Of a stretch of 39,097 nucleotides of DNA, positions 4,317 through 28,010 are shown piece by piece. Position numbers and translations under genes: made by a program. This DNA is from Thermoplasmata archaeon (GTDB taxonomy: Archaea > Thermoplasmatota > Thermoplasmata > Thermoplasmatales > Thermoplasmataceae), in the NCBI GenBank assembly GCA_021792595.1, contig JAJYUI010000003.1, positions 1-39,097 on the forward strand, in the 5' to 3' direction. Numbering within the stretch: the first letter of the stretch is position 1; the number at the start of each line of letters is the position of its first letter. The notes under the pieces were generated by a model, which worked only from the letters and a program-made list of their open reading frames with translations, did not search any database and was not told where the DNA came from.

Positions 4317-5342
4317 TCATATCCTGCCTGAATCCGAGCCGTAGATCTTCCTGTAAAGGAGTTCCCTTGGCTTCAGGCCTCCAAATATCATCTTCATTGC
4401 CATGGCGTCCCTGTAGAACTTCTCAATGCCGAAGGACTCAAAGTACCCATAGCCGCCGTGATACTGTACCGAAGTTCTTGCTGAGTTCAGAGCAAGTTCA
4501 AGGGATGCGTGTCTCAGTACCTCGGAGTTCTCCTCCCTGCGTTCTGAGTCTAGGCTGTGCTTCACCAGGTCTATTTCCCCTTTCATGTTAGTGACTGCAG
4601 CAGCGACGGGACCAAAGTCCTTAAGGGGAGTGTTGAAGACCTTCCGCACCTTTGTGTACTCCAGTGTCTTTTCTATGGCCCCTTCAGCTATTCCGAGCGC
4701 CATTGCCGTTATTTCCAGGTTGACCTGCTTGAGGAATATCTCTTCCAGTTTGCCCTTGCCCAGGTCTTCATACTGACTGTTCTTTGTCTCTACCCCGCCC
4801 CATGTTATTGCACGGAAACCAAGTGGCTTTTGTATTTTCCTCACATTGATCTTATCCTTGACCAGTAAAGTTCTTCCGGACTGGTCTGTCATCAGGAGAA
4901 AATCTGAAGAGCCTCCAGCAGCGATTGGAACATCCGATGTGATCGTTGTTTCGGTGGAGTGGGAGCTTATCCTGGAGAACTCCGAAGGTATTGCCGTCAT
5001 AAATGAAATTTCCCCTCTGCCTGCCCTCTTCAGCAGTTCAATTCCATCCTCGAAATGCGACAAGACCCTCCCAGCTACAGAGTTGAGGAAGAACATCTCC
5101 ATCGCGATGGATGGTTCAGCCTTGGCAAATTCCTCAAGAACCGCAATATAGGACTCTGCGTCCATTCCGGTTCCCCCGGCCTCAGCAGGCAATTTCAGGT
5201 TCAGGAAGCCCTGCTCGCCGAGTTTCTTCCTGAGATCCGGGGTGATCCCGGACTTCTCCAGTCCATTCTCTCCGGATGGCACATTCTTGTTTACAAACTC
5301 CATTACACTTGTCCTAAGTATTTCAGTTATCTCGGAACTCAT
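4317..5342 (-). CDS. Acyl-CoA dehydrogenase-like subunit lacking the catalytic glutamate
   Basis: This short (341 aa) acyl-CoA dehydrogenase family member looks like a non-catalytic partner. In the C-terminal block RDAMAMKMIFGG the position of the catalytic Glu of medium-chain-type enzymes (RDAxxxxIWEGT) is Phe320. The flavin/substrate motif TEPxxGSD is replaced by AIPSEFSRIS (about 117-126), and the beta domain is shortened. The motifs that contact FAD across the dimer interface are kept: RKVFNTPLKDF (R233, F236) and QYHGGYGY (Q293, G296, G297). The gene starts 4 nt inside the end of the catalytic acyl-CoA dehydrogenase gene, so the two are coupled. By inference they form a heteromeric enzyme. 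A Glu elsewhere, as in isovaleryl-CoA dehydrogenase, is a less likely alternative. Confidence 0.85.
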   Translation of the reverse strand: MSSEITEILRTSVMEFVNKNVPSGENGLEKSGITPDLRKKLGEQGFLNLKLPAEAGGTGMDAESYIAVLEEFAKAEPSIAMEMFFLNSVAGRVLSHFEDGIELLKRAGRGEISFMTAIPSEFSRISSHSTETTITSDVPIAAGGSSDFLLMTDQSGRTLLVKDKINVRKIQKPLGFRAITWGGVETKNSQYEDLGKGKLEEIFLKQVNLEITAMALGIAEGAIEKTLEYTKVRKVFNTPLKDFGPVAAAVTNMKGEIDLVKHSLDSERREENSEVLRHASLELALNSARTSVQYHGGYGYFESFGIEKFYRDAMAMKMIFGGLKPRELLYRKIYGSDSGRI

Positions 5343-6451
5343 GGCTTCTCACCCTTCAGCATATTTCTGGCGATAATCAGCTTCTCGATCTCACTGGTCC
5401 CTTCCCAGATCTCAAGAATCTTTGCATCCCTGAAAAACCTCTCAAGATCGCTGTCAATACCATCTATCCCTGCTATTTCAAGAGCTTTCTCCGTCACGAA
5501 CACGGCGGTTTCCCCTGCGTACTGCTTTGCCATGCTGGTCAGCGATGGTATGGGCTCGTAACTGAAAAGGTGGGACGCGGCCTCGTATGTCATCAGTCTT
5601 GTTGCCTTGATCCTGGTCGCCATTTCAGCAAGGGCGAATTGTACCTCTTCCCTGCTTGAATACTCCTCCCCGCGGCTCTTGACCAGGTCCATTGCCCTGT
5701 CGAATGCTCCCTGCGCGACTCCGATTCCCTGGGCAGCGACAAATATCCTGCTTATGTTGAAGAATGTCATGATATAGTAGAACCCTTTTCCCTCCTCTCC
5801 CACAAGGTTTTCCTCCGGGACTTCAAGGTTCTCGAACAGGATCTCGGAGGTCGTTGTAGATCTTACCCCAAGCTTCCCGGTAAGCTTGTTAGCGCTGAAC
5901 CCTTTACTGTTTGTATCCACGACAAGAACACTCAGACCGTGATGCCGCTTGGCCTCCTTTGAGGAAGTTCGTACAAGCGTTATGAAGAAATCAGCGAGGT
6001 TGCCGTTTGAAATGAACATCTTGGAGCCGTTAACCACATAATGCCCATCTTTCTTCTCAGCCCTGGTACTGGCCCCTGCCACGTCGCTTCCTCCGCTGGG
6101 TTCTGTCACTGCAAGTCCCATGATTGCCTTGCCGCTGTTAATTCTGGACAGGTACTTTTCCTTCAGATGGTCAGACCCGAACAGCATTATAACTTCTGCA
6201 CCGAAGTATGGTATTGTGACTGATATTCCAAGTCCCGGATCTATGGAGCAAAGTTCCTCTATGGAAATAAGGACCTTCCACGGATCGTCATAGCTGACCA
6301 GTCCATTCTTGTAAGTCAGTTCCCTCAGTTCATCGGGATACTTTTCATTAATGTCCGAATCCCTGATTCTCTGCTTCGTAAACTCTTTCTTCCCAAACTC
6401 TCTTACCTTCTTCCTGAATTCTTCATGTTCTTCCGAAAACTTGAAATCCAT
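5339..6451 (-). CDS. Acyl-CoA dehydrogenase, catalytic subunit
   Basis: This flavoprotein (370 aa) performs alpha,beta-dehydrogenation of an acyl-CoA and passes electrons to ETF. Visible motifs are TEPSGGSD (residues 116-123), NGSKMFISNG, and RDAKILEIWEGTSEIEKL, where Glu350 is the expected catalytic base. Two parts of the family consensus are weak. The RxxFGxPI segment reads RGEEYSSREEV (from R260), and the QxxGG interface motif reads EIAGI (325-329). Both are intact in the overlapping downstream partner, which suggests a shared FAD site between the two proteins. The gene lies 3 nt after thiolase in the same operon, with a GAGGGTG ribosome-binding site. Chain-length preference cannot be told; short branched acyl-CoAs are plausible given the dehydrogenase complex nearby. 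Confidence 0.92.
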   Translation of the reverse strand: MDFKFSEEHEEFRKKVREFGKKEFTKQRIRDSDINEKYPDELRELTYKNGLVSYDDPWKVLISIEELCSIDPGLGISVTIPYFGAEVIMLFGSDHLKEKYLSRINSGKAIMGLAVTEPSGGSDVAGASTRAEKKDGHYVVNGSKMFISNGNLADFFITLVRTSSKEAKRHHGLSVLVVDTNSKGFSANKLTGKLGVRSTTTSEILFENLEVPEENLVGEEGKGFYYIMTFFNISRIFVAAQGIGVAQGAFDRAMDLVKSRGEEYSSREEVQFALAEMATRIKATRLMTYEAASHLFSYEPIPSLTSMAKQYAGETAVFVTEKALEIAGIDGIDSDLERFFRDAKILEIWEGTSEIEKLIIARNMLKGEKP

Positions 6452-6454
6452 ATC

Positions 6455-7645
6455 TTACACCCTCTCAAGAAGCATCGTATAGCCCTGGCCGCCACCCACG
6501 CACAGCGTTGCAGCTCCAAGGTTCTTTCCGTCTTCCTTCAGTGATCTGCACAGAGTACCCGCTAGTCTTGCACCACTTGCCCCAAGTGGATGCCCGATGG
6601 AGATTGCTCCTCCCCTCGTGTTTACCTTCTCTTCTGGAATGCCGAGCTCCTTCATCGCATTGAGAACTACGACTGCAAAGGCTTCATTTATTTCGAAAAG
6701 GTCAATGTCCTCGATGCTCAAACCGCTCTTCTGCAAAGCCCTTCTAGTGGCCGGTACCGGTCCTTCCCCCATTATTGAGGGCTCAACAGCTGCCCAGCCG
6801 AATCCTCTAACTTTTGCCAGTGGTTGTATCCCTGTTTCCCTGACCTTCTTACCTGACATCAACATTACAAGCGAAGCCCCGGCGTTTAGCGGAGATGAGT
6901 TGCCTGCCGTGATACGGCCGCCGGCCTTGAAGGCGGGAGGGAGACTTGAGATCTTTTCAAGTGTCGTGTCCCCCCTTATGCTTTGATCCCTGTCTATAGT
7001 GACTTCCTTGCCCTCATATTCTACGTTCATTGGGAGAATCTCATCCCTGAAGTATCCCCTCTCCTGTGCTTTTGATGCAAGAGAGTGGCTCCTGACGGAA
7101 TACCTGTCCATTTCATCCCTCTGTATCCCCTTAAGGTCTGCCAGCTTCTCTGCAGTAAGACCCATAGAATAACCAACATTCATCTCGTACTTCATGTACT
7201 CTGGCCGGACTAGTAGCTTGATGTTTGGCTTCACATGTGGGTTGTCAGATAATGGGACATGCGTCATGTGCTCCATCCCTCCGGCCATTACAATGTCTGA
7301 ATTCCCCGTCTGTATTTCCATTGCAGCAATGGAGATCGCATTCAGCGAAGATGAGCAGGCCCTGTCCATGCCCATTCCTGGTACTGAGACGGGAAGTCTT
7401 GAAAGCAGCACCGGGTGTCTGCCACCATACGTCCAGTTTTCGTCAGCCTGTATGGCACAGCCTGTGATTACATCATTAACCTCTTCTCCCTTCACCCCCG
7501 TAGCTTCAATCGAATCGTTTATCAACCTCGCAAGGGCTTCATCCATTCTAAGTCCATTGAAAACATCCCTCTCCGGGTCCTTAGGCCTAGATCTTGAAAA
7601 CGGGCTCCTCTTATAGTACACTATATATGCATCTTCGTCAACCAT
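6455..7645 (-). CDS. Acetyl-CoA acyltransferase (thiolase)
   Basis: This 396-aa thiolase catalyses the thiolytic last step of beta-oxidation, or acetoacetyl-CoA formation. The nucleophile Cys97 lies in MDRACSSSLNAI, His352 in GHPLGASGAR, and the acid/base Cys382 in CVGGGQG. This is the complete catalytic set of a degradative-type thiolase, unlike the archaeal HMG-CoA-linked thiolases that lack the last Cys motif. It heads an operon with two acyl-CoA dehydrogenase genes. A GGAGGA ribosome-binding site (complement of 7655-7660) sits about 10 bases before the ATG. The nearest TATA-like element is about 160 bases upstream, so this mRNA probably has a leader, unlike most operon heads here. Confidence 0.93.
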   Translation of the reverse strand: MVDEDAYIVYYKRSPFSRSRPKDPERDVFNGLRMDEALARLINDSIEATGVKGEEVNDVITGCAIQADENWTYGGRHPVLLSRLPVSVPGMGMDRACSSSLNAISIAAMEIQTGNSDIVMAGGMEHMTHVPLSDNPHVKPNIKLLVRPEYMKYEMNVGYSMGLTAEKLADLKGIQRDEMDRYSVRSHSLASKAQERGYFRDEILPMNVEYEGKEVTIDRDQSIRGDTTLEKISSLPPAFKAGGRITAGNSSPLNAGASLVMLMSGKKVRETGIQPLAKVRGFGWAAVEPSIMGEGPVPATRRALQKSGLSIEDIDLFEINEAFAVVVLNAMKELGIPEEKVNTRGGAISIGHPLGASGARLAGTLCRSLKEDGKNLGAATLCVGGGQGYTMLLERV

Positions 7646-10484: not shown

Positions 10485-10898
10485 ATGGCAGATAAAATGT
10501 CTCTGTTACTGGTGTCTGGAACTGCTGACAAGCTCATGGCAGGAAGCATAATCGCTAGCGGTGGAGTTGCGAATGGCATGGATATTGACATCTTTGTCAG
10601 TTTCTGGGGGCTGATGGAAATGAAGAAAGATGCCCCTCCAAATATGAAGTTGAGCTTTGAGGGCAAGGACATGGCTGACCAGATCTTTGCAGTAATGAAG
10701 GAGAAGAAGGTACCGGGATGGAAGGAAATGCTGAGACAGGCCAAGGATGTCGGGAACATCAAGGTCTACGCTTGTGCAATGTTTGCCGATCTCATGGGGC
10801 TAAAGAAGGAAGACCTCGATCCCATGGTGGACAGCATAATTGGAGTGTCAGAATTTGTTGACATGGCAAAAGATTCTAAGGTGACCCTGTTTATATGA
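10485..10898 (+). CDS. DsrE-family sulfur carrier protein
   Basis: This 137-aa protein of the DsrE/DsrF-like fold is of the type that often accompanies TusA and carries persulfide or thiosulfonate sulfur on a conserved cysteine. The only cysteine is Cys97 in [14 protein letters not shown], at the place expected for the sulfur-binding Cys of DsrE3-like proteins. The N-terminal strand [13 protein letters not shown] and the following helix fit the fold. It is the first gene of a compact set (DsrE, TusA, FAD oxidoreductase, DUF1641), and its stop codon lies 10 bases before the TusA ATG. An alternative start at Met5 exists. Its sulfur donor and acceptor are inferred to be its neighbours, not shown. 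Confidence 0.85.
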
Positions 10899-10908
10899 GG
10901 TGAAAGAA

Positions 10909-11151
10909 ATGGCTGAAGAAATAAAAGCGGACAAGGTAGTAGATGCAAGGGGCAGTTTCTGCCCCGGACCACTTATGGAACTGATAAAGGCGTACAAGGA
11001 AGCGAAGGCTGGCGATGTGATAAGCGTCTATTCCACAGACAACGGAACCAAGACGGATGCGCCTGCCTGGATCAAGAAGTCTGGGAACGAGTTGATTAAG
11101 ATAATCGATCGAAACGGATACGTAGAGATCGTGATGAAAAAGGTAAGGTAG
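10909..11151 (+). CDS. tusA: TusA/SirA-family sulfur carrier protein
   Basis: This small (80 aa) sulfur-transfer protein has the family motif at Cys18, in [16 protein letters not shown], a CPxP-type site. The Cys accepts persulfide sulfur and delivers it to partners. ATG 10909 is chosen over the in-frame GTG at 10900 because GAGGTGA (10897-10903) forms a ribosome-binding site with normal spacing to the ATG. The gene sits between DsrE and an SQR-like flavoprotein. That is a sulfur-trafficking context as found in sulfur-oxidising archaea, rather than tRNA thiolation. Confidence 0.9.
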
Positions 11152-11159
11152 TGTGAGTT

Positions 11160-12302
11160 TTGCTAGCTGCTAAAAAGGTCGTGATACTTGGTGACGGCGC
11201 AGCTGGAACCATAATGGCAAACAAGCTGCGCATGCTTACGCACTCCAGCGAAACCAGGATCGTAGTCATAGGAAATTCCAAGAAACACTATTTCAAGCCT
11301 GATGGCGTGCATATCCCCTTCAAACTGAAGAGGTACCAGAACAGCGTGAAACCCACGAGGTTCCTGTTCAACTATGGCGTTGAGTACATATTCGACGAGG
11401 CAACGGGAATTGATGTTTCCCAGAGAACCGTTCGGCTCAAATCTGGCAACAGCACATCCTACGATTATCTCATAATTGCAACTGGGGACAGGTTCGATTA
11501 CAATGAAATTCCAGGTTACATAGGTGAGGCGAGACACTTCTACGACCTTCAGCATTCGTTGGAACTCGCTAACATTCTGGATTCCTTCAATGGAGGGAAG
11601 ATCGTCATTGGTCCGTCCAGTATACCGTACCAGTGCCCTCCGGCCCCTTACGAGTTCACTTTCCTGCTTGACAAGTACCTCAGGGACAGGGGGATAAGGG
11701 ATAAAACGGAAATCCACTATACATTCCCCCTCAACAGGGTCTTCACCATGGAGAATGTCGCAAACTTTGTCAACAGGCTGTTTGACGAGAGAGGAATCAT
11801 TACGCACACCCTCTTCAACGTTGAGTCGATCAATGGCCTCAATAAGACTGTCACTTCAATCGAGGGAGAGGACGTGAAGTATGACCTGCTCATCATGGTG
11901 CCACCTCACAAGGGGCAGAAGATGATCACAGATTCTGAGCTCGCTGGCCCAAGCGGATACATAGACGTTGACAGGCATAAGTTGAGCTACAAGGATTACG
12001 ACGATGTGTTTGCAATCGGTGACGCGACCAACCTTCCGATATCAAAGGCTGGAGCAACCGCTCATTTTGAGTCGGAGTATCTTGCAAACCGAATAGCTCA
12101 CGAGATTTCTGGAAACGTGTACGACGAGACTTACAACGGAGAAGTGGCGTGCACGACGATCACGGGTGCAGGGAAGGCAATGACCCTGTACTTCTCGTAT
12201 GACAGACCCCCAAGGGCCGAGTTCCAGAGCAAGATGGATTACCTGTTGAAGTGGACCTCTGCAGACACCTATTTTTCAGGGATGCTCAGGGGGATAATGT
12301 GA
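11160..12302 (+). CDS. FAD-dependent pyridine nucleotide-disulfide oxidoreductase, SQR-like
   Basis: This 380-aa two-dinucleotide-fold flavoprotein resembles sulfide:quinone oxidoreductases. The N-terminal FAD fold reads KVVILGDGAAGTIMANKLR, and the second flavin motif DDVFAIGDATNLPISKAG lies near residue 282. It has only two cysteines, Cys159 in SSIPYQCPPAPYE and Cys331 in EVACTTITGAG. These correspond by position to the redox pair conserved in SQRs; a third Cys found in many SQRs is absent. The C-terminus (residues 355-380) has hydrophobic residues that could give monotopic membrane contact. The start is TTG 11160, preceded by GTGAG. The likely role is oxidation of sulfide or of a protein persulfide on DsrE/TusA with electrons to quinone; the substrate is inferred. 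Confidence 0.85.
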   Translation: MLAAKKVVILGDGAAGTIMANKLRMLTHSSETRIVVIGNSKKHYFKPDGVHIPFKLKRYQNSVKPTRFLFNYGVEYIFDEATGIDVSQRTVRLKSGNSTSYDYLIIATGDRFDYNEIPGYIGEARHFYDLQHSLELANILDSFNGGKIVIGPSSIPYQCPPAPYEFTFLLDKYLRDRGIRDKTEIHYTFPLNRVFTMENVANFVNRLFDERGIITHTLFNVESINGLNKTVTSIEGEDVKYDLLIMVPPHKGQKMITDSELAGPSGYIDVDRHKLSYKDYDDVFAIGDATNLPISKAGATAHFESEYLANRIAHEISGNVYDETYNGEVACTTITGAGKAMTLYFSYDRPPRAEFQSKMDYLLKWTSADTYFSGMLRGIM

Positions 12303-12312
12303 GGTGAAAGAA

Positions 12313-12798
12313 ATGAATGACGATTCTGTGGAAATCATGAAAGAGGAGAATATTGACGAGATGGCAAGGATGCTTGGAGAACTTGAGGAAAACGCGGACA
12401 TATTCAAGTCGTTGCTCGACATCCTAAAGAGGCTCAAGAAAGCAGGTGTCGTGGGGTTCCTTGACAACCTGTCAAAGGACTTTATGCCCACTGATGTGGA
12501 ATTTCTTGGAAAATTTTTCACTTCAAGGGAGTTCAGTACCGCCACGATAAAGGCGGGCAACACGATGATAGCCATGCTTTACACCCTCTTGAGTGAACAG
12601 AATTCTGACCTTGTCAAGTTGCTCCTTTACAACGCGGAGGGTTTCTCTGAAGCGATCATTGACGGTGCCAAGAATCCAAGGAAGATGTCCCTGCTTTCCC
12701 TTTATTCAATGATCAAAGACCCTGATGTGGCCTCCGGGATGACTGCCCTTCTCAACGCATTGAAGGTGCTTGGGAAGGTAATAAACGAGAAGATGTGA
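12313..12798 (+). CDS. DUF1641 family protein
   Basis: This all-helical acidic protein of 161 aa has the DUF1641 pattern: repeated short helices ending with KDPDVASGMTALLNALKVLGK. DUF1641 proteins are typically encoded beside SQR-like or formate-dehydrogenase-like redox enzymes, but their function is unknown. Here the gene follows the SQR-like gene directly. Its ATG at 12313 is preceded by the same TGAGGTGAAAGAAATG junction used for TusA, so the in-frame GTG at 12304 is less likely. No cysteines or cofactor motifs are visible. A scaffold or partner role for the flavoprotein is a guess from context. Confidence 0.82.
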   Translation: MNDDSVEIMKEENIDEMARMLGELEENADIFKSLLDILKRLKKAGVVGFLDNLSKDFMPTDVEFLGKFFTSREFSTATIKAGNTMIAMLYTLLSEQNSDLVKLLLYNAEGFSEAIIDGAKNPRKMSLLSLYSMIKDPDVASGMTALLNALKVLGKVINEKM

Positions 12799-12877: not shown

Positions 12878-14905
12878 ATGATATATCTCTTCTCACTAAT
12901 TCTGATTATAGGCATCGTTGCTTCAGTGATTCTATTCTTCTACTCACTTTATGAATATGCCTGGAACATGCTTAAGATCCCGTTGAAGAAGCCAAGAATG
13001 AAACTGCAGGTCCTCAGAAGGGTCTACACAGTCATAAAGAATGTACTGTTCCAGCGCAAATTGTTCAAGGACCCCAGCGGAGGTGTAATGCATGCCCTCA
13101 TGTTCTGGGGTTTTGTTGCATTCGGGGCATATTCTCTTGACTTTCTCGCAACGGGCGCTGACCCGTCGTTCAGGTTCTTCCTTTCGGGTATTGTGGAAGA
13201 GGCTGCATTCTTCACAGTGGATCTTTTCGCGGTTATTGTGCTAGTGGATGTGTTTTACTCCATCCTCAGGAGATGGGTCATCAAGGTCCCGAGGTACCAG
13301 GGATATAACGGGTTTGAGGCATGGTTCATCCTGCTGCTTATTGGTACCCTGATGGTATCATACTACATTCTCGGCATCCTCAGGCTGCAGGGTTATACCG
13401 CTGGAATTCCTGGATCAATAATGGGAGGATTGCCTGCTTCTGCTACCCCTGTGACAGCGTTTCTCTCTTCGATTTTTGTTGTTCCCGCAAGCTATGCCCT
13501 GGGTATTTACTGGTCTGTGTGGTCAATACATGCACTGGACTTCCTGGTGTTTCTTGTTTACATACCAAGGTCAAAACATCTCCACCTCGTAGCTGCCCCG
13601 CTGAATGTATTACTCTATGATTACAAACCCAGGGGAGAGCTTACGGTGGTTGATTTCGAGAAGGAGACTAGATTCGGGGCCACGGATGTCCGAGACTTTA
13701 CGTGGAAGGACTATCTTGACTTTTACTCATGCACGGAATGCGGCAGGTGTACTTTTAACTGCCCCGCGTTTCTCACCGGGAAGACGCTTTCACCAAGGGA
13801 CATCATATGGGATCTGAGAGAAACACTCATAGCCCAGGGAAGAAATTTGAGGAGGAGCGGTGAAAATCCATCAGAGTCTCAGCAACTCACGAGCGTGATT
13901 GGTGACCCGATACAGGAGGAGGATCTATGGTCATGTACCACCTGTGGCGCTTGCGTTGAGCAATGCCCCGTAATGATTGACCATGTCGACAAGATAGTTG
14001 ACATGAGGAGATCACTTGTCCTTAACCAGGGAAAGGCGCCGAAGGAAGCCCTGGACTTGTTCCGGAACATTGAGTCATACTCAAGCCCCTGGGCATACGA
14101 CCCGTCCACAAGGGGAGACTGGGCCAACGGGCTTGATGTTGTTGACCTGTCAAAGACGCCCGATGCCCCGTTCGACTACCTCTACTGGGTGGGGTGCGTG
14201 GGGAGTTATGACCCCAGGAACCAGGAAATCTCAAAGGCTGTTGTGAAAGTACTTAAGAGCGCCGGAGTAAAGTTTGCAATTCTGGGATCTGAAGAAAAGT
14301 GCACTGGAGACCCCGCCCGAAGAGCTGGCAACGAATACCTGGCGCAGACCATGATACAGCAGAACATGTCAACCCTCAATGGCAAGAATGTCAAGAAGGT
14401 AATCACGAACTGCCCCCACTGTTTCAACTCCTTCAAGAATGACTACAAGGCTTTTGGCCTGGAACTGGAAGTCCACCACCACACCGAATTCATTGATAGC
14501 CTTGTGAAAGAGGGAAAAGTAAAGATCGCCTCGAATGATCAGGACAAGGATGAAAAATACACATTCCACGATTCATGCTATCTTGGAAGATACAACAACA
14601 TTTTCCAGCAACCAAGAGACGTAATCGGGAACTTCGCCGTAAACTACCAGGAACTTGAAATGGCCAAGACCAAGGGATTCTGTTGTGGTGCTGGCGGAGG
14701 GAGGCTTTTTATGGACGAGAAAGTTGGGCAGAAAGTATCCCACAAGAGGATAGAGATGGCGGAAAAGGTCAACGCAACCACCGTAGTCACCGCCTGCCCT
14801 TACTGCATGACCATGTTGGATGATGCACGAAAAGTCAAGAACCTTGAAGACAAGATGAAGATCAAGGACCTTGCAGAACTTGTTTCTGAGAGGCTTTCCA
14901 AGTAA
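12878..14905 (+). CDS. Membrane-bound HdrD-like Fe-S oxidoreductase (candidate ETF:menaquinone oxidoreductase)
   Basis: This 675-aa protein has three parts. Residues 1-255 hold about six membrane helices of the nitrate-reductase-gamma/DsrM type, with histidines that could bind heme b (for example in MHALMFWGF). Two [4Fe-4S] motifs follow, CTECGRCTFNCP (about 285) and CTTCGACVEQCP (about 352). Two CCG domains come last: the first is atypical (SEEKCTGDPARRAGNE, about 474) and the second canonical (GFCCGAGGGR, about 601, ending ACPYC). This architecture matches the Fe-S oxidoreductases found beside ETF and acyl-CoA dehydrogenases in bacteria, which move electrons from ETF to menaquinone. It converges on etfA, 56 bases away. 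Service to the upstream sulfur genes is an alternative. Confidence 0.88.
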   Translation: MIYLFSLILIIGIVASVILFFYSLYEYAWNMLKIPLKKPRMKLQVLRRVYTVIKNVLFQRKLFKDPSGGVMHALMFWGFVAFGAYSLDFLATGADPSFRFFLSGIVEEAAFFTVDLFAVIVLVDVFYSILRRWVIKVPRYQGYNGFEAWFILLLIGTLMVSYYILGILRLQGYTAGIPGSIMGGLPASATPVTAFLSSIFVVPASYALGIYWSVWSIHALDFLVFLVYIPRSKHLHLVAAPLNVLLYDYKPRGELTVVDFEKETRFGATDVRDFTWKDYLDFYSCTECGRCTFNCPAFLTGKTLSPRDIIWDLRETLIAQGRNLRRSGENPSESQQLTSVIGDPIQEEDLWSCTTCGACVEQCPVMIDHVDKIVDMRRSLVLNQGKAPKEALDLFRNIESYSSPWAYDPSTRGDWANGLDVVDLSKTPDAPFDYLYWVGCVGSYDPRNQEISKAVVKVLKSAGVKFAILGSEEKCTGDPARRAGNEYLAQTMIQQNMSTLNGKNVKKVITNCPHCFNSFKNDYKAFGLELEVHHHTEFIDSLVKEGKVKIASNDQDKDEKYTFHDSCYLGRYNNIFQQPRDVIGNFAVNYQELEMAKTKGFCCGAGGGRLFMDEKVGQKVSHKRIEMAEKVNATTVVTACPYCMTMLDDARKVKNLEDKMKIKDLAELVSERLSK

Positions 14906-14961: not shown

Positions 14962-15861
14962 TTACTGTCCAGATTTTATGGCTTCAACCAGTTTTGGTAC
15001 TATCTGGAAAAGGTCCCCCACAATGCCGTAATCTGCCTCCTCAAAAATTGGGGCAGCCTTGTCCTTGTTTATTGCAACCACAGTCTTGGAACCGCGCATA
15101 CCGGCTATGTGCTGTATCTGCCCTGATATCCCCAGTGCTATGTACACCCTGGGCCTTACTTTCTTTCCTGATAGACCGACCTGCCTGTCCTCTGACAGCC
15201 AGTGGTAATCCAGGCAAATTGGCCTTGAACCAGCAAGCTCTCCCCTGACTGCTTCCACAAGGGGGTTCACCTTCTCGATATTCTCCTGCTTGCCTATCCC
15301 CCTTCCAATGCTTACAATGATTCCCGCTTTCTCCAGATCAACTGCGCCTGATGTCTTGTCCTCGGCGCCAATAAGGGTAATCCTGCTTGCAGGTGATTCT
15401 ATTTCTGTCACAGTCCCTTCTTTCGCAGATGATTTCGGTTCTGATATTCCAGGCATTACCGTCAGAATCTTTGCGGTCGAAGATTCCTCCAGAACAGTTT
15501 TTCCTCCGTAGAAAAATCTCCTGGTGATTATTCTTCCCCCCTCTGTTCTGAATCCTGTGATCTCGCTTGCCACCTCAAACCCAAGGTCTTCAGACAACAG
15601 AGCGGCTACATCCCTGCCAATTGCAGTCGATCCGATAAAAATGTAGTCGTAGTCATTTTTCTTCTGTAGTTCCAGAATAGAGGCTGCAATTGACTCTGGG
15701 AACTGCCTCCCCTTAAGAGCGTATATATTACCGGCACAGTACTTCGCCACCCGGTATGGGTCCTTTCCGCTAGTAACAGAATCAGTTTCCATGGTGCCGG
15801 AAAGGAATGAATTGATCTGTATGCCGAGATCGTCCACGTCAGAGAATACCATCGCCTTCAC
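14962..15861 (-). CDS. etfA: Electron transfer flavoprotein, alpha subunit
   Basis: This 299-aa ETF alpha (FixB) subunit holds the FAD that carries electrons from acyl-CoA dehydrogenases. The C-terminal FAD domain is typical: RVYIALGISGQIQHIAGM, then VVAINKDKAAPIFEEADYGI and a final GDLFQIVPKLVEAI. The N-terminal half has the usual Rossmann-like ETF fold with YIFIGSTAIGRDVAA. It overlaps etfB by 4 nt (ATGA). The acyl-CoA dehydrogenase pair lies 8.5 kb away and the candidate membrane acceptor is the convergent neighbour. The compact size favours a non-bifurcating ETF, but this is not decisive. Confidence 0.93.
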   Translation of the reverse strand: MKAMVFSDVDDLGIQINSFLSGTMETDSVTSGKDPYRVAKYCAGNIYALKGRQFPESIAASILELQKKNDYDYIFIGSTAIGRDVAALLSEDLGFEVASEITGFRTEGGRIITRRFFYGGKTVLEESSTAKILTVMPGISEPKSSAKEGTVTEIESPASRITLIGAEDKTSGAVDLEKAGIIVSIGRGIGKQENIEKVNPLVEAVRGELAGSRPICLDYHWLSEDRQVGLSGKKVRPRVYIALGISGQIQHIAGMRGSKTVVAINKDKAAPIFEEADYGIVGDLFQIVPKLVEAIKSGQ

Positions 15862-16604
15862 TTGATCGCCTCCCTGATTGCCTTCGACACTTCGGGAATT
15901 CCTTTTTCCGGATCCTCAAATACAAGTTTCTTCCTCTCACTCTTCGGTGCAAGATTTGAGATTACCTGCACCTCCGAACTGCCAGAGATGGAAGTAGCCT
16001 CCATGTTTATGGGTTTCTTTCCAGCTTGCAGTATCTGCATTACAGGAGGCAGCCTTGGTTCATTTATCTCCTGTGTTACAGATATAACGAGTGGAGTTGC
16101 AGCTTCTGCAGTCAGGTTTTCGCTCTCCGTAGCCATGACGACTCTCGCCTTTCCCTCCTCCACGTCCACCTTTATAGCGTTTGAAAGTAGAGGCTCGCCC
16201 AGTATCTTGGCGATCTTTCCTGCCAGGAGCCCGGTGTAGGATTCTGCAGACTGGTTTCCCATCATAACAATGTCGTGTGGGATGGTCTTGATCTTCTCTG
16301 CAAGAACTTTGGCTGTCCTGGTGGGATCGTTTCGTTCATATCCAGTAATAATCAGTCCCTCATCCACGCCCATCGCGTAAGCCTCTTTCAACGCCGAAGA
16401 AGCCTTTTCAGTACCGAAACAGAGCCCGTATACCTTTCCTCCTTTCTTCTCCTTGATCCTCACGGCTTCCTCTATGGCATTCTTGCTCAGTGTTTCAAGT
16501 CTAAGCGGCAGGTTCTGTACCAGTGGTGACCCGGTCGAAGGGTCCGCTTTCAACAAGTCTATGTCTATAATCTGCTTGAACAGCACTATTATGTTAACTG
16601 GCAT
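15858..16604 (-). CDS. etfB: Electron transfer flavoprotein, beta subunit
   Basis: This 248-aa ETF beta (FixA) subunit opens with MPVNIIVLFKQIIDIDLL and has the NAIEEAVRIKEKKGG segment. The family signature VMATESENLTAEAATPLVISV lies near residues 155-175. It dimerises with ETF alpha, whose gene overlaps by 4 nt. In conventional ETF this subunit binds AMP. An AT-rich TATA-like element (16640-16650) lies about 40 bases before the ATG, implying a short leader. Confidence 0.93.
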   Translation of the reverse strand: MPVNIIVLFKQIIDIDLLKADPSTGSPLVQNLPLRLETLSKNAIEEAVRIKEKKGGKVYGLCFGTEKASSALKEAYAMGVDEGLIITGYERNDPTRTAKVLAEKIKTIPHDIVMMGNQSAESYTGLLAGKIAKILGEPLLSNAIKVDVEEGKARVVMATESENLTAEAATPLVISVTQEINEPRLPPVMQILQAGKKPINMEATSISGSSEVQVISNLAPKSERKKLVFEDPEKGIPEVSKAIREAIK

Positions 16605-25994: not shown

Positions 25995-28010
25995 TCATCT
26001 TCCCTTAAATTCTGGTTTTCTCTTCTGCAGGAATGCCGAGACTCCTTCCTTGATGTCTTCTGTCCCAAACAGCATCCCCATTGAGATGGCTTCCATGTCC
26101 AACCCCGTTGTTATGGCAGTGTCTATCCCCTTGTAGATGAGAGTTTTCGCTGTAGCGACTGAGGTTGGTGCAACTTCCGTTGCTATCTTCGTGGCAACTG
26201 AGGTGACTCTTTCGGAGAGGGATTCTGCGGGGACGCTATCCCAGGCGATCCCGATGTTCATGGCACGGGCACCTTTTATGCGCTCCCCCGTAAGGATCAT
26301 GTAAGCTGCCCTGGATCCGCCGATCAACTTGGGAAGTCTCTGGGTGCCGCCCCAGCCTGGCACGAGGCCTCTTGTAACTTCAGGAAGGCCCATTTCTGCA
26401 ACGTCAGAGGTGATCCTAATATCGCATGCAAGTGCAAGCTCAAAGCCTCCGCCAAAGCAGTACCCGGAAATTTCCGCAATTGTCACCTGCGGAAGTTCCG
26501 TGAGTGCACTGAAGACTCTCTGCCCCTTCCTGTCAGTCTCCATGAAGTCAATCCCCCCGGAAAAGAACTGTGAAAGTTCTGCTCCCGCGCTGAATACCCC
26601 ACTCTTGCCTCTGAACACAATGACCCTGGTTTCCCTGTCTTTCCTGAAGCTTTCTATTTTTTCTTCCAGTTCATCAAGCATCTGCGAATTCAGAAGGTTG
26701 AGTCTTCCATTGTTGAGTTCTAGGTAAGTGACAGGCCCCTCCCTTCTCACCATGATTAGCTCACCCTCATGCTGCGGCAACGTGGAGACTGCATTAGACT
26801 CCTGCGCATGCGATATCTTTTCGCCCTCAGGCCTGGCCTCTGCCGGGGCCGGTTTAGAATTAATGACCTCACGAAGCCTGCCTTCCTGGATTGAACGTGC
26901 AGGAAGGAAGTAGTCGCAGCCAAGGTTTCTTGCTATCTCCTCAAGTTTCCCCTTGATCTCAGAGTTGGAAAGGCCCTGTGCCACGGATATGGGGCCGAAC
27001 GGCCTGTTGAGGCCCAGTTTCACCCCTGTTTCTATATCTTCAGGGGTTGCTATTCCCTCCTCGATGACTCTCACCGCTTCGTTCACGTCAATGGCAAATA
27101 TGTCAAGCAGTTGGATCTTGTCTGTCGGAGTGGCCGCAGGAATTACTGCCTTGCCATCCTTCCATTCATAGAATCCCCTTCCTGTTTTCAGGCCCAGTTC
27201 ATTTCTGTCCATCTTTTCCTTCAGGGTGCGGAATCTGGTGAATTCCCCGGACAGGGTACTGGAATAGTACTCCATCGAGTGGACTACTGTGTCGATACCC
27301 ACATAGTCCATAAGTTCGTATGGACCCATGGGCAATCCCTGCGACTTTGCAAACGCGTCCACCTCTTCAGGTCTCGCGATCCCGTTGTCCAGAACAGCCG
27401 AAAAGAAGAGCCCTTCTGGAGCGCTGATCCTGTTTACAACAAACCCCGCCCGGTCTCTGTTGACTCGTATGGGCTTCTTTCCGATCTCCTGTGAAAGTTT
27501 GAACATCAGTTCGAAAACTTCATCTGATGTGGATTCTCCTCTTATGACTTCCACCAGTTTCATCAGAACAGGAGGGTTGAAGAAGTGAAGTCCGACAAAT
27601 CTTGCAGGGTCAGGAACGCTCTTTGAAAGTTCTGTTATGCTAATGTTTGAAGTGTTTGAGGCAATTATTGCACCCTGTTTTGCCACTTTCGAGACGTCCT
27701 CAAAAACCTGTCTCTTCAGGTCCATTACCTCGGGAACCGCCTCTATGATTAGATCAGCGTCCCTGGCTGATTCTGCAAGGTTCTGGGAATATCCTATGAG
27801 CTGCATGGTTCTGTCCTTCTTCCCCTGATCTAACTTTCCCGATGCAAGCATTCTTGCTAGGCTTTTTTCGATGGAGGCCCTGGCCCTTGAAAGTGATTCC
27901 GGGATCACATCCTCCAGGATTACGCTGTAACCGCTAAGAGCGAAGACTTCTGCGATCCCATGCCCCATAATTCCGGAGCCAATAACAACTACCTTCTTGA
28001 TCTCATCCAA
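25995..28010 (-). CDS. 3-hydroxyacyl-CoA dehydrogenase/enoyl-CoA hydratase fusion
   Basis: This bifunctional beta-oxidation enzyme has 671 aa. Residues 1-290 are a 3-hydroxyacyl-CoA dehydrogenase with NAD motif VVVIGSGIMGHGIAEVFA, NTSNISITEL and the catalytic-His segment VGLHFFNPPVLMKLVE. A second copy of the HAD C-terminal domain spans about 300-390. After a flexible linker, residues about 415-671 form a crotonase fold with oxyanion-hole GVFSAGAEL and GYCFGGGFELALACD. Both crotonase Glu positions are present (in GGFELAL and GLPEVTRG). The HAD-then-ECH order is that of archaeal fusions, opposite to bacterial FadB. The SCP2 gene ends 6 bases before its start codon, forming an operon. It should follow the acyl-CoA dehydrogenase pair and precede thiolase. 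Confidence 0.94.
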   Translation of the reverse strand: MDEIKKVVVIGSGIMGHGIAEVFALSGYSVILEDVIPESLSRARASIEKSLARMLASGKLDQGKKDRTMQLIGYSQNLAESARDADLIIEAVPEVMDLKRQVFEDVSKVAKQGAIIASNTSNISITELSKSVPDPARFVGLHFFNPPVLMKLVEVIRGESTSDEVFELMFKLSQEIGKKPIRVNRDRAGFVVNRISAPEGLFFSAVLDNGIARPEEVDAFAKSQGLPMGPYELMDYVGIDTVVHSMEYYSSTLSGEFTRFRTLKEKMDRNELGLKTGRGFYEWKDGKAVIPAATPTDKIQLLDIFAIDVNEAVRVIEEGIATPEDIETGVKLGLNRPFGPISVAQGLSNSEIKGKLEEIARNLGCDYFLPARSIQEGRLREVINSKPAPAEARPEGEKISHAQESNAVSTLPQHEGELIMVRREGPVTYLELNNGRLNLLNSQMLDELEEKIESFRKDRETRVIVFRGKSGVFSAGAELSQFFSGGIDFMETDRKGQRVFSALTELPQVTIAEISGYCFGGGFELALACDIRITSDVAEMGLPEVTRGLVPGWGGTQRLPKLIGGSRAAYMILTGERIKGARAMNIGIAWDSVPAESLSERVTSVATKIATEVAPTSVATAKTLIYKGIDTAITTGLDMEAISMGMLFGTEDIKEGVSAFLQKRKPEFKGR

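Follow-up and report, generated by a model that had tools for sequence, protein, structure and literature searches.

The division of an acyl-CoA dehydrogenase (ACAD) between two chains is an already known design that has so far been described mainly for bacterial steroid-degrading enzymes, and heteromeric ACADs have been regarded as peculiar to such bacteria. In the solved α2β2 steroid enzymes, the alpha chain provides the binding site for the isoalloxazine ring, the catalytic base and the contacts to the substrate, while the ADP-ribose portion of FAD is held by the beta chain (PMC11153573). The heterotetrameric state is essential for these enzymes, and each tetramer carries two FAD molecules (PMC8399759). 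For the position of the catalytic base (loop J-K or helix G) we follow the published assignment (PMC11153573).

Here we analyze two ACAD genes on a 39,097-nucleotide stretch of DNA, referred to as the window, from a Thermoplasmata archaeon of the family Thermoplasmataceae (contig JAJYUI010000003.1 of assembly GCA_021792595.1). The two reading frames, named alpha and beta, are both present on the minus strand and overlap by four bases, with alpha positioned upstream (Table 1). An earlier note, made from the DNA sequence alone, had described the products of these genes as an ACAD pair with a complementary loss of active-site motifs, and the sequences bear this out. The alpha protein retains TEPSGGSD and Glu350, possesses EIAGI instead of QxxGG and has no RxxF; the beta protein has kept RKVFNTPL and QYHGG and carries Phe320 at the position of the catalytic Glu. 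While alpha contains the sequence FISN at residues 146-149, neither a TEPxxGSD-like nor a FITN motif was found in the sequence and alignment of beta. Alignment of both chains to complete enzymes revealed none of the missing motifs at a shifted position, which answers an objection that the note had itself raised in advance. Hence, neither alpha (without RxxF and QxxGG) nor beta (without TEPxxGSD and Glu) combines all FAD motifs in one chain in the way homotetrameric SCAD/MCAD enzymes do. By domains and fold, both proteins nevertheless belong to the ACAD superfamily: alpha matches all three Pfam ACAD domains (N, middle, C), and beta, whose middle domain is reduced, matches the N and C domains with no match to Acyl-CoA_dh_M. 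The paired unit is larger than the note had stated, as the thiolase gene listed in Table 1 belongs to it.

Table 1. Features of the window discussed in the text; residue numbers refer to the alpha or beta protein.
Feature	Positions	Strand	Basis
beta: 341-aa degenerate ACAD, predicted supplier of cross-subunit FAD contacts	4317..5342	-	Pfam, fold, purifying selection in relatives
beta Phe320 at catalytic Glu position	4383..4385	-	alignment
beta QYHGG, residues 293-297 (QYHGGYG from 293), cross-subunit FAD motif	4452..4466	-	alignment
beta RKVFNTPL, residues 233-240 (Arg233, Phe236, Leu240), cross-subunit FAD motif	4623..4646	-	alignment
alpha: 370-aa ACAD, catalytic, predicted FAD isoalloxazine and substrate half	5339..6451	-	Pfam N/M/C domains, fold, motif counts
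alpha Glu350 (in WEGTSE), predicted catalytic base, SCAD/MCAD loop J-K position	5402..5404	-	54-alpha alignment
alpha EIAGI, residues 325-329, at QxxGG position	5465..5479	-	alignment
alpha stretch with RxxFGxPI lost, approx. residues 260-266, length-variable	5654..5674	-	alignment
alpha TEPSGGSD, residues 116-123, own-subunit FAD/substrate motif	6083..6106	-	54-alpha alignment
thiolase (acetyl-CoA C-acetyltransferase, PRK06445/NF005033), first gene of the unit	6455..7645	-	NCBIfam above cut-off
EtfD-like membrane Fe-S oxidoreductase: two CCG domains, 4Fe-4S dicluster	12878..14905	+	domain search
EtfA (14962-15861) and EtfB (15858-16604), likely electron acceptor	14962..16604	-	NCBIfam ETF matches below curated cut-offs
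3-hydroxyacyl-CoA dehydrogenase/enoyl-CoA hydratase fusion	25995..28010	-	domain search

In most of the 77 genomes of the window's family, a search with beta found a strong match over its full length. We gathered 40 regions from this family and 14 from other families of the class, 12 of the latter with pairs and two with complete ACADs, and added two named loci ('Thermoplasmata archaeon', L106; 'Euryarchaeota archaeon', L107). In the aligned set of 54 alphas and 55 betas used for all motif counts, the Thr of TEP and the Ser and Asp of GSD are present in every alpha, and the Glu of TEP is present in 50 of the 54, with Asp in the remaining four. The catalytic Glu is found in 54/54 alphas and in 0/55 betas, most of which possess a Phe or Leu at this position. 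Both the Arg and the Phe of RxxF occur in 55/55 betas, and none of the alphas has the Phe; the two Gly residues of QxxGG are likewise present in every beta, preceded at the Gln position by Gln (49/55) or Asn (6/55), while the Gln is missing from all 54 alphas and replaced by Glu in 51 of them. This partition, conserved in all pairs surveyed, is near-invariant; it is far beyond chance and is the product of neither accident nor decay.

Alpha is located directly upstream of beta on the same strand in every beta locus that is not cut by a contig end. The survey of co-encoding proposed in the note found the pair together wherever the contigs permit, with one orphan second copy of alpha as the exception. 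The distance matrices of the two chains correlate with r = 0.79, whereas none of 2000 permutations exceeded 0.21. Among the closest pairs, dN/dS ranges from 0.012 to 0.031 for alpha and from 0.03 to 0.14 for beta, so that beta is maintained by purifying selection. Its divergence is 2.3 times that of alpha, a feature that a partner of less strictly constrained function would show as well.

AlphaFold models of the single chains had mean pLDDT values of 91.9 (alpha) and 83.6 (beta), the weak parts of the beta model falling in its reduced middle domain and C-terminal tail. The alpha model shows a complete ACAD fold and can be superposed on solved ACADs (363 residues, 1.6 Å, Z 49.6), its best structural matches being homotetrameric enzymes; for beta, the corresponding values are 329 residues, 2.7 Å and Z 33.9. 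Since both monomers are modeled as full ACADs, either chain could fill an ACAD subunit position. No chain of 4x28 or 6wy8 was among the best 50 structural matches in VIA-align.

As actinobacterial controls, we used the steroid gene cluster around IpdE2 in genome G534 and the ACAD pairs encoded on the plasmids of Rhodococcus jostii RHA1. The steroid-type pairs of G534 are presumably orthologues of the solved heterotetramers. Both sets of controls yielded the same complementary motif table as the archaeal pair, and we infer from this the same working principle for the latter. Judged by its residues, the archaeal pair divides the FAD contacts between alpha and beta in the same partition. Because alpha-alpha contacts would lack the cross-subunit motifs and beta-beta contacts the flavin pocket and the base, a homo-oligomer of either chain would not possess a full FAD site. 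We therefore consider it highly probable that the two genes encode one heteromeric, probably obligate ACAD, most likely an α2β2 tetramer with two active sites. Alpha would bind the isoalloxazine ring of FAD and the acyl-CoA, and Glu350 would abstract the alpha proton. Beta, with no catalysis of its own, would reach over the subunit interface with Arg233/Phe236 and Gln293-Gly-Gly and hold the ADP half of the FAD in alpha, if the roles of RxxF and QxxGG can be carried over from homotetrameric ACADs.

The thiolase gene is positioned directly upstream of alpha on the same strand (order thiolase-alpha-beta) in 52 of the 54 loci. In 21-23 of these 54 loci, EtfA/EtfB genes lie no more than 5 kb from the pair; an EtfD-like gene occurs in its vicinity in 17 loci, and in 18 the 3-hydroxyacyl-CoA dehydrogenase/hydratase fusion adjoins thiolase-alpha-beta. 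The window has all of them together. No steroid-ring genes were recognised in the window by domain and NCBIfam annotation. These ETF, EtfD-like and 3-hydroxyacyl-CoA dehydrogenase neighbours suggest that the pair is most likely a general dehydrogenase of core beta-oxidation, whose substrates are probably ordinary saturated acyl-CoAs. Electrons would pass from the alpha-beta enzyme to EtfAB and on to the EtfD-like membrane protein, and the general beta-oxidation spiral would be completed by the hydroxyacyl-CoA dehydrogenase/hydratase fusion together with the thiolase encoded in the operon itself. EtfD of M. tuberculosis, a membrane protein required for ACAD activity, has the same domain order (PMC8593149). 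Proteomes of acid-mine Thermoplasmatales contain beta-oxidation proteins, and the authors of that study noted that the roles of individual ACAD genes are hard to discern (PMC3750248). Directly before the EtfD-like gene of the window, DsrE-like, TusA-like, FCSD/SQR-like flavoprotein and DUF1641 genes follow each other in a row (10485-12798), a cluster of the sulfur-transfer/sulfide-oxidation type.

Many Thermoplasmata, nearly all genomes of the window's family included, encode the split pair. An alpha profile matched 68 of the 77 family genomes and all 35 of high quality, and 47 of 250 genomes of the class have alpha. In the class-wide profile searches, the families with alpha are also those with beta (f1, f3, f4, f12, f29), the two genes share the same genomes apart from contig-edge cases, and neither was found in family f2 of the same order. 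Among 292 genomes of the phylum, no true beta was present outside the pair-bearing groups, and the remaining matches to beta were complete-type enzymes of roughly 380 aa scoring below 200 bits. A contig scan with the beta profile gave mostly complete enzymes among the matches listed, the true betas there being L106 and L107. The survey of other archaeal phyla comprised one Asgard genome.

Several loci depart from the regular arrangement. Halves of pairs occur at contig edges (L253, alpha without beta; L256, beta without alpha; L257), and we assign those in L253 and L256 to assembly gaps. In G056 (L254 and L255), many genes are frameshifted, thiolase and alpha among them, as expected of an uncorrected assembly; this apparently broken pair was set aside because the adjoining genes are equally fragmented. 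In G061, a single contig of 1,584,804 bases, the only beta gene is frameshifted (L076, 5750-6759) and alpha is intact, which may reflect a sequencing error or a real loss. G060 carries a second, diverged copy of alpha with no adjoining beta (L252, 3882-5015), and its sister genome G059 has a second complete alpha-beta pair (L060). The orphan alpha of G060 and the frameshifted only beta of G061 count against a heteromer.

In the phylogenetic tree, the archaeal alphas are sister to the complete enzyme L185, which possesses RxxF, QxxGG and Glu (100/99), and the actinobacterial alphas form a separate clade with complete enzymes beside it (100/99). All beta-type chains join (100/99); we do not take this as common descent because they are long branches that have lost the same residues. 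A 33-row AU test rejected a single clade of all three alpha types (p = 0.0006), and in the same test a forced common clade of archaeal and actinobacterial alphas was 29.5 log units worse but not rejected (p = 0.097), so that an origin of the archaeal pair separate from that of the steroid enzymes is favoured as the likely one. The archaeal pair could instead be a branch of the actinobacterial steroid heteromer lineage that was acquired by transfer, as the joined betas and the shared alpha clade left standing by the AU test would allow. We regard this history as unlikely, although it has to be reckoned with, since the sister of alpha is a complete single-gene enzyme, the position of the base differs, and the union of fast-evolving betas is an expected long-branch artefact.

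A third complementary ACAD pair is encoded in a Myxococcales locus behind a complete ACAD gene (L184, 3356-4501 and 4971-6095). Its alpha-like chain joins complete enzymes of Myxococcota (100/98), and this pair probably has a separate origin. In a tandem pair from Zixibacteria (L108, 2-1120 and 1123-2268), one chain is without RxxF and without the second Gly of QxxGG and its neighbour looks complete, an arrangement that may be intermediate on the way to a heteromer. We lean, by a little, toward the reading that, independently of the bacterial steroid enzymes, a core beta-oxidation ACAD of an archaeal order turned into an obligate heteromer while keeping its SCAD/MCAD-type base, and that the split arose at least once more, in the Myxococcales (L184); division of the shared FAD site between duplicated chains would then be a recurrent one-way ratchet in the superfamily.

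Sequence does not reveal subunit numbers, and the two chains might be assembled differently, for example as an alpha-beta heterodimer, or beta might be shared with other ACADs of the cell; the orphan second alpha of G060, for instance, might borrow the beta of the first pair. We give such arrangements a small chance: the solved steroid-type heteromers are α2β2 (PMC8399759), and in the genome examined three of the other ACADs (L002, L003, L005) keep an RxxF of their own, L002 also a complete QxxGG, and hence show no comparable need for a partner. Smaller still is the chance that alpha functions alone as a homotetramer with its FAD held by other contacts, leaving beta as a regulator, chaperone or inert passenger. 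The modeled completeness of the alpha fold, the orphan alpha and the faster evolution of beta would fit such a role, but beta retains precisely those FAD-contact residues that alpha has lost (55/55) while the rest of its flavin pocket has drifted, and adjacency and co-evolution of the two genes are near-universal. The reduced middle domain of beta and the frameshifted copy in L076 might suggest a pseudogene decaying after a tandem duplication. For the whole group, this reading is refuted by the low dN/dS of beta, its invariant R, F and HGGYG residues, and its persistence in 17 genera of one family as well as in further families.

Our searches of the open-access literature, from which most subscription papers are absent, returned no report of a heteromeric ACAD from Thermoplasmatales, in line with the note, or from other archaea. 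What appears to be new, as far as can be read from the genes, is that acidophilic archaea place this division in their ordinary fatty-acid pathway. Automated annotation reports the pair as two separate dehydrogenases, so that pathway reconstructions miscount enzymes, and attempts to express only one of the two genes are expected to fail. A conserved pair with a near-perfect split in many species also offers a clean test case for the passage from a symmetric homo-oligomer to a locked hetero-oligomer.

Among known systems, MmgC (5lnx) and the deltaproteobacterial L185 are the closest relatives of alpha in sequence and fold and share its Glu on loop J-K; such homotetrameric short-chain/butyryl-CoA dehydrogenases, unlike alpha, unite all own- and cross-subunit motifs in a single polypeptide. 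In the fused steroid dehydrogenases CasC and ChsE3, one domain is catalytic and the other is required for FAD binding (PMC8399759); in contrast to the archaeal pair, these are single chains of steroid context in the order FAD-helper then catalytic domain. The fused protein encoded in L239 shows the same motif split inside one chain. IpdE1-IpdE2 (T. curvata homologue 6wy8/6wy9; NF050027) is heterotetrameric and serves steroid ring degradation, a context unlike that of the archaeal pair; beta matches the IpdE2 model NF050027 weakly (25 bits; cut-off 450) and 6wy8_A by profile with an E-value of 9e-20. As in enzymes of the ChsE/IpdE type, the archaeal locus co-encodes two ACAD chains with the catalytic Glu in one of them. 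The note had invoked mycobacterial FadE heteromers as precedent. With respect to descent, this comparison is not clear, given that the nearest relative of alpha is a homomer-type enzyme and that the base position differs: the alpha-like chains of G534 and RHA1 carry Glu on helix G (IVD/LCAD type; xxER) and Gly or Ala at the MCAD position, whereas in the archaeal alphas helix G carries Ser (NISR) and the Glu is on the SCAD/MCAD-type loop. With respect to mechanism, the comparison holds, since the division matches the ChsE4-ChsE5 structures. The cholesterol side-chain dehydrogenases ChsE4-ChsE5 (FadE26-FadE27) and ChsE1-ChsE2 (FadE28-FadE29) of M. tuberculosis serve steroid rather than general beta-oxidation; as in the archaeal pair, they are encoded by adjacent genes, with base, flavin and substrate in one subunit and the ADP-side contacts in the other (PMC11153573, PMC8399759), an arrangement that the archaeal motifs predict for alpha and beta.
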